A DNA stretch of 57,092 bases, from assembly GCA_036399815.1 (NCBI GenBank), contig DASWMK010000110.1:1-57092 (forward strand), written 5' to 3'. Shown here piece by piece: positions 48,349 through 53,534 of this stretch; positions within the stretch are counted from its first letter, which is position 1; the number at the start of each line of letters is the position of its first letter. The notes under the pieces are model-generated. The model saw only the letters and a list, made by a program, of their open reading frames with translations, ran no database searches and had not been told where the DNA came from. The DNA comes from Acidimicrobiales bacterium. GTDB taxonomy: Bacteria; Actinomycetota; Acidimicrobiia; Acidimicrobiales; DASWMK01. Made by a program: the position numbers and the translations under genes.

Positions 48349-50328
48349 TCAGTCCTCCAGGTCCTCGAGCAGGGTGCGGGCCCGGTCGGCCACGTGCTCG
48401 GCGGTGAAGCCCAGGCGCTCCAGCACCACCTTGCCCGGTGCCGACGCCCCGAACCGGTCGATGCCGACGCAGTCGTCGGCCCAGCGGTCCCAGCCGAAGG
48501 TCGCCGCCGCCTCGACGGCCAGGGTCGGCACGTCGGCCGGCAGCACCCGGTCGTGCCAGTCGTCGCCCTGCTCCTCGAACAGCTCCCAGCACGGCATGGA
48601 GACGACGCGGACGGCGATCCCGTCCTCCCGCAGCAGCCGGGCGGCGCCGAGGCACACCGACACCTCGCTGCCCGTGCCGATCAGCACGAGGTCGGGCTCG
48701 CCGCCCGACGGGTCGTCCTCCAGCACGTAGGCGCCCCGCAGCACGCCCTCGTTGCCGGCCGTGCCCGGCAGCACGGGCACGTTCTGGCGGGTGAGGACGA
48801 GCGCGGTCGGCCCGTCCCGGTCGACGGCGACCCGCAGGGCCTGCGCGCACTCGTTGGCGTCGGCCGGGCGCATCACCCGGATGCCGGGCATGGCCCGGAG
48901 GGAGGCGAGCTGCTCGACGGGCTGGTGGGTGGGGCCGTCCTCGCCGAGGCCGACCGAGTCGTGGGTCCACACGTGGATGACGTGCGCGCCGGCCAGCGCG
49001 CCGAGGCGGACGGCGCCCCTGGCGTAGTCGCTGAAGTTGAAGAACGTGCCCCCGGCCGGCAGGACGCCGCCGTGGTAGGCCATGCCGTTCATCACTCCGG
49101 CCATGCCGTGCTCGCGCACGCCGAAGTACAGCTGGCGGCCGGCGGGGTGCTCGGCGCTCTGCTGCTCCTGGTCGTCGAGCTTGGTGCCGGTGTTGCCGGT
49201 GAGGTCGGCGCCGCCGGCGACCAGGCCGGGCACCACGTCGAGCACGGCCGAGAAGCACGCCTGGATCGACTTGCGGGTGGCGAGCGACTCGCCCGCCTCC
49301 CAGGTCGGCAGCTTGGCCTCCCAGCCGTCGAGGCCGCGGCCGACCAGGCAGGCGTCGAGCTCGGCCCGGTCGCCGGCGAAGCCGTCCATCCGCCGCTCCC
49401 ACGCCTCCCGCTCGGCCCGGCCCCGGCGCCCCAGCTCGAGCCAGTGCTCGCGGACGTCGTCGGGCACCCAGAACGTCTCGTCCGGCGGCAGGCCGAGGAC
49501 CTCCTTGGTCCTGCGCACCTCGTCCTCGCCGAGCGGGTTGCCGTGGGCGTGCTCGGTGTCGGTGTAGGTCGGGGAGGGCCAGCCGATGTGGCTGCGCAGG
49601 ATCAGCAGCGACGGCCGGTCCTCCACGGCCATGGCCGCCCGCAGGCCCTGCTCGAGGGCGTCGACGTCGTTGGCCACCTCGCCGAGGTGCTCGACGTGCC
49701 AGCCGTAGGCCTCGAACCGGCGCCCGGCGTCGTCGGACAGCGACAGCTCGGTCGGCCCGTCGATCGAGATGTGGTTGTCGTCGTAGACGTAGACGAGGCG
49801 GCCGAGGCCGAGGTGGCCGGCGAGCGACGCCGCCTCGTGGCTGATCCCCTCCATGAGGTCGCCGTCGGAGCAGATCACGAACGTATGGTGGTCGCACACG
49901 TCGGGGCCGAACCGGGCCCGCAGCCAGCGCTCCGCGATCCCCATGCCGACCCCGTTGGCGAAGCCCTGGCCGAGCGGCCCGGTCGTGACCTCGACCCCCG
50001 GGGTGTGGTGGACCTCGGGGTGCCCCGGCGTCCTGCTCTCCCACTGCCGGAAGGCCCTCAGGTCGTCGAGGGAGAGGTCGTAGCCGGTCAGGTGGAGCAT
50101 CGAGTAGAGCAGGATCGAGGCGTGGCCGGCCGAGAGGACGAAGCGGTCGCGGTCGGGCCACTCGGGCGCCTCGGGGTCGTAGCGCATGACCCGGCCCCAG
50201 AGCACGTAGGCGAGGGGGGCGAGGGCCATGGCCGTCCCCGGGTGCCCGGAGTTGGCCTTCTGGGGGGCGTCCATGGCGAGGCCCCTGATGACGTCGATGG
50301 CCCGCTGCTGCACGCCGGGGTCGGTCAT
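48349..50328 (-). CDS. tkt: Transketolase
   Basis: 659 residues. The thiamine diphosphate site is SDGDLMEG (154-161) to Asn185. GHPGTAMALAPLAYVLW and the catalytic TGPLGQGFANGVGMG are in place, and the C-terminal transketolase domain is complete. It moves two-carbon units in the pentose phosphate pathway. The ATG at 50328 overlaps the FIST gene stop (ATGA). Confidence 0.95.
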   Translation of the reverse strand: MTDPGVQQRAIDVIRGLAMDAPQKANSGHPGTAMALAPLAYVLWGRVMRYDPEAPEWPDRDRFVLSAGHASILLYSMLHLTGYDLSLDDLRAFRQWESRTPGHPEVHHTPGVEVTTGPLGQGFANGVGMGIAERWLRARFGPDVCDHHTFVICSDGDLMEGISHEAASLAGHLGLGRLVYVYDDNHISIDGPTELSLSDDAGRRFEAYGWHVEHLGEVANDVDALEQGLRAAMAVEDRPSLLILRSHIGWPSPTYTDTEHAHGNPLGEDEVRRTKEVLGLPPDETFWVPDDVREHWLELGRRGRAEREAWERRMDGFAGDRAELDACLVGRGLDGWEAKLPTWEAGESLATRKSIQACFSAVLDVVPGLVAGGADLTGNTGTKLDDQEQQSAEHPAGRQLYFGVREHGMAGVMNGMAYHGGVLPAGGTFFNFSDYARGAVRLGALAGAHVIHVWTHDSVGLGEDGPTHQPVEQLASLRAMPGIRVMRPADANECAQALRVAVDRDGPTALVLTRQNVPVLPGTAGNEGVLRGAYVLEDDPSGGEPDLVLIGTGSEVSVCLGAARLLREDGIAVRVVSMPCWELFEEQGDDWHDRVLPADVPTLAVEAAATFGWDRWADDCVGIDRFGASAPGKVVLERLGFTAEHVADRARTLLEDLED

Positions 50329-51518
50329 GGCGCCTCCTCGGTGGGCTCGGTGGGCTCGGTGGGCCGGGTGGGCCCGGCCGGGTCGGAGAACAGGGCGACC
50401 GAGGCCGTGTAGCCGTGGACGAAGTTGCGGCCCCCGACGGGGCCGAGCTCGCCGGCGCAGAACATCCCGGCCGACGCGCCGGCCGTGGTCACGTGGCGGG
50501 CGACGAGGCCGGCGTCGTGGTCGGGCACGCCGAACAGCCCCATGCCCCGCCCGTTGCAGGTGAACACGAGCGCGGCGTCGGCCGAGCGCCCGGCCAGCAG
50601 GGCCCGCAGGTCCTCGTCGGCGGCGCCCGCATCCCGCACCTGGAACTGGACCGTCGAGCCGACCTCGACCTGGTCGCCGACGGCGATGGCGCCGGCCTCG
50701 CGGTCGGCGCCGAGCACGGCCCTGATCAGGAAGTCGCCCCGCTCGAAGTCCGTCCGGCGCTCGTCGATGACCCGGCCGACGTGGATGCCGCCGGCGGCGA
50801 GCGGGCGCTCGTCGGCGGGCAGGGCGGCGACGGCCTCCCGCAGCCGGTCGAGCGCGGGGCGGCCGCCCAGCTCGTAGACGACGTTGCGCTCGGCCCTCGT
50901 CACCGTGAGGGGCTGGCCGATGGGCCGGCACCCCTGGGAGACGACCGCGGCGACCGGCACCGATCGGTCGAGCAGGGCGCCGACGGCGCCGTCGGTGAAA
51001 ACCCGGTCGTCGAGGACGAGGCGGTTCCCGCCCGGGCCCCGCGCCGCCGACGCCAGCCCACCGACGACGGTCAGGCCGGGGGCCAGCTCGGTCAGCCGGT
51101 CGAGCAGGCGGTCGGCCGGGAACGAGTACGGGTCGGGGACGAGGAGCAGGGTGGCGGCCCGGCCGGCCTCCTCGGGCATGCCGACGACGGCCGGGCCCCG
51201 GTCGGTGTCGACGGTGGCGAGGCGCACGGGCACGGGCCGGGACGGCAGGCGCGCCGCCCACAGGCTCACGCCGGGGTGCTGCTCGACCTCGCGGCTGCCG
51301 CCGAGCACCGACACGGCCGTCGCCCCGAGCAGCACGCCGGGCCGGAGGGCGGTGCGGACCACGCCGGCGATGTCCTCGATGGCGCCGCCGTGGGCCTCGG
51401 TGACGAACAGGACGGCGAGGTCGGGCTCCTCGCCGATGGCCTCGAGCACCGTGCCGACCACCTCGCCGACGGCGTGGGCCCCGGACGGGTGCTCGGAGAG
51501 CGCGGCGGCGAAGGGCAC
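50325..51518 (-). CDS. FIST-domain protein
   Basis: 397 residues with FIST N- and C-terminal domains: DLAVLFVTEAHGGAIEDIAG and GVLLGATAVSVLGG in the N-terminal half, LVFTCNGRGMGLFG and FCAGELGPVGGRNFVHGYTASVALF at the end of the C-terminal half. FIST domains are thought to sense small ligands such as amino acids, often in signalling proteins, but here stand alone. The final residues are a TEP/TRP repeat encoded by GGTGGGCTC repeats. Stop overlaps the transketolase start, an unusual link. Function unknown. Confidence 0.9.
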   Translation of the reverse strand: MPFAAALSEHPSGAHAVGEVVGTVLEAIGEEPDLAVLFVTEAHGGAIEDIAGVVRTALRPGVLLGATAVSVLGGSREVEQHPGVSLWAARLPSRPVPVRLATVDTDRGPAVVGMPEEAGRAATLLLVPDPYSFPADRLLDRLTELAPGLTVVGGLASAARGPGGNRLVLDDRVFTDGAVGALLDRSVPVAAVVSQGCRPIGQPLTVTRAERNVVYELGGRPALDRLREAVAALPADERPLAAGGIHVGRVIDERRTDFERGDFLIRAVLGADREAGAIAVGDQVEVGSTVQFQVRDAGAADEDLRALLAGRSADAALVFTCNGRGMGLFGVPDHDAGLVARHVTTAGASAGMFCAGELGPVGGRNFVHGYTASVALFSDPAGPTRPTEPTEPTEEAP

Positions 51519-52103: not shown

Positions 52104-52844
52104 TCAGGCGGCCACCGGCTCCTTCAGCCGGGGCCGGTCGTGGCGCACGGTCGCCCACCCGGCCCGCTGGAACAGGCGGATCACCCACCAGCCGGGGTCG
52201 ATCTCGCCCTTCGTGAACGCCAGCTTGGCCGAGGTCGGGGCGGCGTGGTGGTTGTTGTGCAGCCCCTCGCCCGAGGTGAGCAGGGCCAGCCACTGGAGGT
52301 TGGTCGCCGTGTTCGGGTGGGGCCGGCGGCCGAACGTGTGGGTGATGGCGTTCACGGCGGCGTTGAGGGCGAGGTAGGCGACGGCGTGGACGCCGGCGGC
52401 CAGCAGGCCGGCGAGCGGGCCGAGCACGACGACCAGGAAGGCGATGCCGATCGACAGGCCCAGCCAGGCCCGGTCGAACAGCAGCCGGTCCCACGTGTCG
52501 GCCGGCAGGTCCCTGGCGTAGCGGGCGACCTGGTCGGGGTCGGTGGCGACGGCCCGGTAGAGGCCCACGTTGTCCACCTGCACGCGCTTCCAGCCGAGGA
52601 GGACGGGGGAGTGGGGGTCGCCCTCGACGTCGGTGTAGGCGTGGTGCTTGCGGTGGACGGCGACCCACTGGCGGGGCCGGATCCCGGTGGTGACCCAGAT
52701 GAGCACCCGGAACACGCCGGCCAGGCCGGGCGCCAGGGTGACGGCCCGGTGGGACAGGGCCCGGTGCAGGTAGATCGTCGTGAACAACGTGCCCAGCTGG
52801 GCCGTGGTGAAGCCGACGACGAGGGCGAGCAACGCGAGCGACAT
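52104..52844 (-). CDS. Fatty-acid desaturase, delta-9 acyl type
   Basis: 246 residues from the ATG at 52844; a GTG at 52856 would add four. The three histidine boxes of the membrane desaturase family are HRALSH (27-32), HRKHH (64-68) and HNNHH (196-200), around hydrophobic segments for four membrane spans. It puts a double bond in acyl chains using oxygen and a ferredoxin-type donor. An AAGGTGG lies before the ATG. A TetR gene is divergent and shares a palindromic gap, so repression by that TetR is likely. Confidence 0.92.
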
Positions 52845-52861
52845 GGTGCGGTCCACCTTAC

Positions 52862-52879
52862 CTACCTACCGGTCGGTAG
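52862..52879. promoter_or_regulatory. 18-base near-palindrome, TetR operator between desaturase and regulator
   Basis: CTACCTACCGGTCGGTAG matches its reverse complement at 16 of 18 positions, with a CCGG centre. Sites of the form TACCnACCGGTnGGTA are classic TetR-family operators. It lies in the short gap between the divergent desaturase and TetR starts, where a self-regulating repressor would bind, and almost touches the desaturase ribosome site. The binding is inferred. Confidence 0.65.
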
Positions 52880-52916
52880 AAACGTTCCGGACCTTCTGTG
52901 GATACCCTGCGCAGCG

Positions 52917-53534
52917 ATGACCCAGACGCCGACCGTGCCGACGACGCGGGAGTCCATCCTGGTCGAGGCCCGTCGGTGCTTCGCCGAGCACGGCTACGAG
53001 GGCACGTCGCTGAACGACATCGCGGCGCGCGTCGGCATCCGCCGGCCGAGCCTCCTCCACCACTTCACGTCGAAGGAGGCCCTGTACCGCGAGGTGTTCG
53101 AGCGGGCGCTGGCCGACTGGACGACGAGGGTCGAGGACGCCGTGCGGGGCGACCGGGAGGGGTGGACCCAGGTCGACCACGTCATCACCGCGGGGTTCCG
53201 GTTCTTCATGGAGAACCCGGACTTCGTCCGCCTGGCCCGGCGGGAGGCGCTGGACGGCGGCACCCACCTCGGGCTCGACCTCGGCGCCGCCCTCCGCCCG
53301 CTGTTCCGGCGGGCCGTCGAGTACTTCGAGCGGGAGATGACCGCCGGCCGCTTCCGCCGCCACGACGCCGAGCAGCTCGTGCTCACCGGGTACGGCGCCC
53401 TGCTGACCTACTTCAGCGACCTGCCCTTCCTCGAGCACCTGCTCGACCGGGACCCGCTGTCGGCGGCGGCGATGGACGCCCGCATGGACCACGTGCGGGA
53501 GTTCTTCCGGGCCGCCCTCACCCCCACGTCGTAG
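52917..53534 (+). CDS. TetR family transcriptional regulator
   Basis: 205 residues. The N-terminal helix-turn-helix domain spans about 11-57: [39 protein letters not shown]. The C-terminal ligand domain is helical ([22 protein letters not shown]). A family of similar TetR proteins controls unsaturated fatty acid synthesis. Its neighbour, the desaturase, is the obvious target. ATG at 52917; the coding end overlaps the GH84-like gene on the other strand by 17 bases. Confidence 0.93.

Follow-up and report, generated by a model that had tools for sequence, protein, structure and literature searches.

We propose that one lineage of TetR-type regulators, seen so far in one actinobacterial class only, probably acts as a master repressor across that class and holds down the synthesis of unsaturated fatty acids. 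It would act through a single operator that stands before four groups of desaturase genes, including soluble and membrane types without shared ancestry, and that in each case has merged into the -10 region of a promoter, which often looks leaderless; the operator would follow the reaction and not the gene family. This proposal grew from an 18-bp palindrome in the window, by which we mean the whole stretch of 57,092 nt analysed here. We put at roughly 0.8 the probability that the adjoining TetR protein uses this palindrome as its operator to control desaturases, its binding being predicted from the site, its conservation, the co-occurrence with TetR orthologs and the placement before desaturases, all of which were computed. 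The features of the locus are these:

52104-52844, minus strand: membrane fatty-acid desaturase of 246 aa, read from the ATG at 52844 (PF00487 and three His boxes)
52855-52860, minus strand: candidate -10 box of the desaturase gene, TAAGGT, from a TANNNT scan
52862-52879, no strand assigned: putative 18-bp operator CTACCTACCGGTCGGTAG, called from its symmetry, a second genomic copy and its class-wide placement
52903-52908, plus strand: candidate -10 box of tetR, TACCCT, from a TANNNT scan only
52917-53534, plus strand: TetR-family regulator of 205 aa (PF00440, PF17938 and predicted fold)

On the plus strand, positions 52862-52879 read CTACCTACCGGTCGGTAG, with a CCGG centre and symmetry at 16 of the 18 positions, i.e., one mismatched pair, and they sit within the 72-bp gap (52845-52916) between the ATG of the desaturase (52844, minus strand) and that of TetR (52917, plus strand). 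The earlier note had described such a palindrome in the gap shared by a TetR gene and a divergent desaturase with three His boxes, and both the site and its two neighbours are as it said. The desaturase is a member of the PF00487 membrane fatty-acid desaturases (FA_desaturase; 61.9 bits, E 1e-16, cut-off 29.7) with the His boxes HRALSH, HRKHH and HNNHH; an in-frame GTG lies at 52856, and against the 385-position NCBIfam model DesA_fam_desat (NF049918) the 246-aa protein stays below the cut-off (194.7 of 400 bits). The regulator belongs to the TetR family by PF00440 (TetR_N; 63.2 bits, E 1.9e-17, cut-off 24), is above the cut-off of PF17938 as well (TetR_C_29; 43.8 bits, E 3.2e-11), and its structure model has the TetR fold (mean pLDDT 87.1, pTM 0.76). 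Other neighbours in the window have no evident lipid link: a FIST N/C protein (50325-51518, minus strand), a beta-N-acetylglucosaminidase (PF07555; 53518-55038, minus strand) and an ATP-grasp protein (PF13549; 55030-55710, plus strand).

Symmetry was rejected as proof of an operator: 39 18-mers in the 57,092-nt window are at least as symmetric, and among 20,000 random 72-mers matched to the window in base composition, 672 contain such an 18-mer. The palindrome goes beyond chance because its sequence is conserved, not because it is symmetric. The window belongs to a draft genome of 4,159,171 bases (287 contigs, completeness 96.7%), from which further sites may be absent. In this draft, CTACCNACCGGTNGGTAG is matched perfectly at one place. 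The next-best match, CTACCGACCAGTAGGTAG with one mismatch, lies on contig C189 (G000:C189:4850-4867), 10 bases upstream of the ATG of a 304-aa protein with PF03405 (FA_desaturase_2, 217.8 bits) and the EXXH motifs EGRH and ENLH. Enzymes of PF03405 are diiron acyl-ACP desaturases that are soluble and whose fold is unrelated to that of PF00487. When the centre is written YR, the resulting degenerate pattern CTACCNACYRGTNGGTAG is found without mismatch exactly twice in the 4.16-Mb draft genome, versus zero times in the reversed control, and both copies precede a desaturase gene. Through the second copy, the same TetR would control an FA_desaturase_2 enzyme non-homologous to the membrane desaturase. 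With this second operator copy in the same genome, the compact switch of the earlier note is not a self-contained pair. Weaker own-genome sites (up to three mismatches) were set aside at 20 versus 15 in the reversed control, and two with two mismatches (L003, L004) were rejected as lying inside coding frames. A second TetR of the same genome (L251, G000:C265:14617-15186) is 36% identical (E 3.7e-27); its contig carries no site with up to three mismatches.

The TetR protein passes no NCBIfam cut-off in a profile search. In the structure search with its model, RutR is nearest (Z 20.9), followed by KstR2 (18.9), a Clostridium fatty-acid regulator (18.7), and AibR and SaFadR (17.5 each); RutR is also the best match in a profile search of the PDB, and in a single-sequence PDB search PfmR (3VPR) is second-best. 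DesT is absent among the best 50 structure matches listed, an absence that proves nothing. The prominence of RutR raises the prospect that TetR acts on desaturases but senses a non-acyl ligand, e.g., a pyrimidine, the kind of ligand that RutR senses. We consider this improbable, though it deserves more weight than the other alternatives, since the protein is far under the RutR cut-off (54.5 of 368 bits, hence not a member), its targets are lipid genes, and KstR2, AibR, SaFadR and the Clostridium fatty-acid regulator lie within about 3.5 Z of RutR. The fold search does not decide the ligand. For a saturated long-chain acyl-CoA or acyl-ACP as inducer, proposed after MadR and DesT, the chances are about even; its binding would free the operator, so that desaturation would rise as saturated substrate builds up. 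Both the acyl-CoA or free fatty acid signal and a purpose in membrane fluidity or temperature response rest on analogy.

From a scan of named genomes, 80 of 91 relatives were retained, and 26 of these (L005-L030) align over at least 175 residues at 58-72% identity, the remainder aligning over shorter or weaker stretches. Since their titles are mostly Acidimicrobiia, Acidimicrobiales or Ilumatobacteraceae, we took the class to be Acidimicrobiia. The site is present with at most one mismatch in the genomes of all 26, with 44 sites in total against 10 for the reversed control, and 38 of the 44 precede a desaturase, five of them (L093, L110-L113) as judged from their translations only. Six other sites were counted as misses (L088, L109, which precedes tetR itself, L121, L122, L124 and L126). 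A close relative of the window desaturase adjoins tetR in only four of the 26 loci (L021, L027, L028, L029), several of which 26 end early upstream; the association of site and desaturase therefore does not stem from neighbourhood alone. The exact sites of L121 (2509-2526) and L122 (2485-2502) lie 9 and 20 bases before acyltransferase-like genes that score at about the cut-off of PF01553, and the regulon may extend to phospholipid synthesis. Two records (L011, L012) are titled Bifidobacterium breve, yet in each of them TetR is 66% identical and the exact site is present twice; these titles look wrong. The places in the genome of L011 (G007) are the same as in G171, a genome assigned to the window's own order.

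Our census of the class relied on 247 genomes, with a TetR ortholog called at E ≤1e-40 and an exact site defined as CTACCNACYRGTNGGTAG without mismatch. The ortholog is present in 67 genomes and the exact site in 52, with 69 sites in total; both are found in 49 genomes, TetR only in 18, the site only in three, and neither in 177 (p=9e-33), i.e., the exact site occurs in 49 of 67 genomes with the ortholog versus 3 of 180 without. Counted in the same order by genus (34/10/3/77, p=4e-18) and by family (20/5/2/26, p=4.5e-8), which lowers the weight of close relatives, the co-occurrence persists. All 69 exact sites were examined, and 65 precede a desaturase: 22 of the window type with divergent tetR (MEM1), 16 MEM2, 15 of the FA_desaturase_2 type (SOL) and 12 MEM3, where MEM1-MEM3 are our own labels for groups inside PF00487, drawn by tblastn likeness. 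The Pfam run covered one MEM1 protein (the window's), three MEM2 (L091, L165, L098) and nine MEM3 proteins (L092, L094, L106, L108, L119, L179, L197, L212, L223), all of which are above the PF00487 cut-off; the sites of two genomes of the class sample were entered under the labels L091, L114, L092 and L115. The four exact sites that precede no desaturase (L196, L198, L204, L213) were counted as misses. The two open bases of the pattern each fall on position 6 of their arm and are G or T throughout (138 of 138 half-sites). Tandem exact operators precede one desaturase each in L192 (2003-2043, 23 bp apart) and L225 (2015-2066, 34 bp apart). The site of L196 (2046-2063) is found 11 bases before a nitronate-monooxygenase-like gene (PF03060), and the same genome has two other sites, preceding desaturases.

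This placement of 65 of 69 sites and the co-occurrence with the ortholog in a 247-genome census give good support to the earlier note where it read the palindrome as a TetR operator coupled to the desaturase. While its operator call stood, it overlooked a dispersed regulon, with further sites before other desaturase groups. Because the same palindrome stands before several unrelated desaturase kinds in related actinobacteria, the TetR-desaturase pair looks like the corner of a wider switch that governs the desaturation of membrane lipids.

Among the 18 genomes with TetR and no exact site, 13 carry a site with at most two mismatches and five carry none, and in 12 of the 13 a best-scoring weak site (ties included) precedes a desaturase. 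Such weak sites number 35 in the 18 genomes, fewer than the 65 of the reversed control, and hence only their position is informative; 20 loci from these 35 were looked at (L228-L244, L253-L255). A one-mismatch site (L241, 1501-1518) lies 9 bases before an AMP-binding ligase gene, and a two-mismatch site (L254, 2055-2072) 9 bases before a 3-hydroxyacyl-CoA dehydrogenase gene. In a phylum sample of 396 genomes, 38 of them of the class (TetR threshold E up to 1e-25), TetR was found in 17 genomes, all of the class, and in none of the 358 outside it; the exact site is present in 12 of the 38 class genomes versus 2 of the 358 others. The outside-class sites (one in G423, two in G443) have no desaturase in front of them by tblastn and ORFs.

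The exact site also occurs without a TetR ortholog in G175 and G217, where it precedes a desaturase, and in G200, where it does not; a looser TetR search of these three genomes yielded weaker matches only (best E 8.8e-14). They speak for a site that is the operator of another TetR protein, of the PaaR or PfmR type, with the adjoining TetR serving other targets, and so does the nearly identical core that PaaR and PfmR bind. Such a scenario strikes us as unlikely in view of the co-occurrence at genome, genus and family level, which includes many genomes whose tetR is not beside the desaturase, and of the 22 sites inside a gap shared with tetR.

If the adjoining TetR does use the palindrome as its operator, the position of the site bears on how the regulator would work; all our promoter statements are read from sequence. 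TAAGGT begins one base past the palindrome and ends 10 nt before the desaturase ATG. In the class sample, GCTG is the most frequent continuation of the site in the desaturase direction, and among 63 cases (the gene-proximal site being taken where two are in tandem) a TANNNT that starts with the palindrome's last TAG is found on the desaturase side in 38 versus 10 on the opposite side; within four bases of the site the counts are 50 versus 11. In many genomes, the ATG follows 9-12 bases past the site, which suggests leaderless desaturase transcripts. As the site runs into the likely -10 box on the desaturase side, repression by promoter occlusion is suggested, and we regard it as likely: the TetR dimer would bind the 18-bp site that abuts or enters the -10 region, and, with the operator between -35 and -10, would exclude RNA polymerase from the desaturase promoter. 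Repression rather than activation is what we infer from this arrangement.

FasR is described as an activator (PMC8872791), and it is a distant sequence relative of the window TetR, which matches the FasR NCBIfam model over its N-terminal part and below the cut-off (40.4 of 330 bits). That TetR binds and likewise activates the desaturase is nevertheless quite improbable, because a dimer bound at a site that overlaps or abuts the -10 region should block RNA polymerase. A chance match without function, to which the 39 equally symmetric 18-mers of the window might point, is contradicted by the census (65 of the 69 exact sites, spread over 52 genomes, precede desaturases) and can be dismissed.

The regulator gene itself may be under partial autoregulation. 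TACCCT ends 8 nt before the tetR ATG, and since this candidate -10 box would put the operator just upstream of the -35 region of tetR, autoregulation would be less direct. Three loci (L109, L198, L253) with the site beside tetR, in which a desaturase was not detected, render self-regulation plausible. Across the 22 divergent pairs (projected starts), however, the site lies anywhere from 10 to 108 nt from tetR; as judged from sequence, it is the desaturase promoter to which the site is matched.

Our searches of the open-licence literature brought up neither this regulator or its regulon nor the perfect palindrome form CTACCGACCGGTCGGTAG; for pieces of the latter, PfmR and PaaR were on top among the matches listed. 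What emerges is a concrete, testable lipid-desaturation regulon for a large group whose members are mostly uncultured; one of these, a record named Candidatus Microthrix (L014), has two exact sites that both precede desaturases. Aquihabitans sp. G128 (L006) likewise carries the ortholog together with two exact sites (L097 and L118), each preceding a desaturase. One operator before unrelated enzymes of the same reaction kind renders the spread of such regulons testable by genome comparison.

DesA1 and DesA2 are desaturases of the FA_desaturase_2 type. In mycobacteria, MadR (Rv0472c) is described as a TetR repressor of desA1 and desA2 that is released by saturated C16-C24 acyl-CoA (PMC8872791). 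The window TetR, for which repression is predicted, resembles MadR as a TetR repressor with two desaturase gene targets; this likeness is drawn from the targets and not from the regulator sequences, and the published MadR motif TCTGTGN7GT differs from the window palindrome, with zero matches in the window where 0.95 are expected by chance. The operator finds its closest counterparts in PaaR of Burkholderia cenocepacia, reported as a TetR repressor with the core ACCGACCGGTCGGT between -35 and -10 (PMC2770484), and in PfmR/TTHB023 of Thermus thermophilus, with the core TACCGACCGNTNGGTN (PMC7022988). The core ACC(G/T)ACCGGT(C/A)GGT is common to these and the window site, a likeness of the DNA site and not of protein membership; the targets given in the pertinent parts of the two papers are genes of phenylacetate and fatty-acid metabolism, and desaturases are not named there. 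In gene arrangement, the window resembles DesT of Pseudomonas aeruginosa and FabR of Shewanella and E. coli, described (PMC4273635) as TetR repressors whose genes diverge from that of a membrane desaturase. The FabR motif given in that account, AGCGTACACGTGTTCGCT, is unrelated to the window palindrome, the Shewanella fabR promoter is stated there not to be autoregulated, and the DesT-3 signature, in the form in which the relevant part of PMC13176608 gives it, is present in none of the 26 orthologs of our alignment A1. Taken together, the window pair, with its TetR gene divergent from a membrane desaturase gene, is a variant of the known TetR-desaturase regulators DesT, FabR and MadR.
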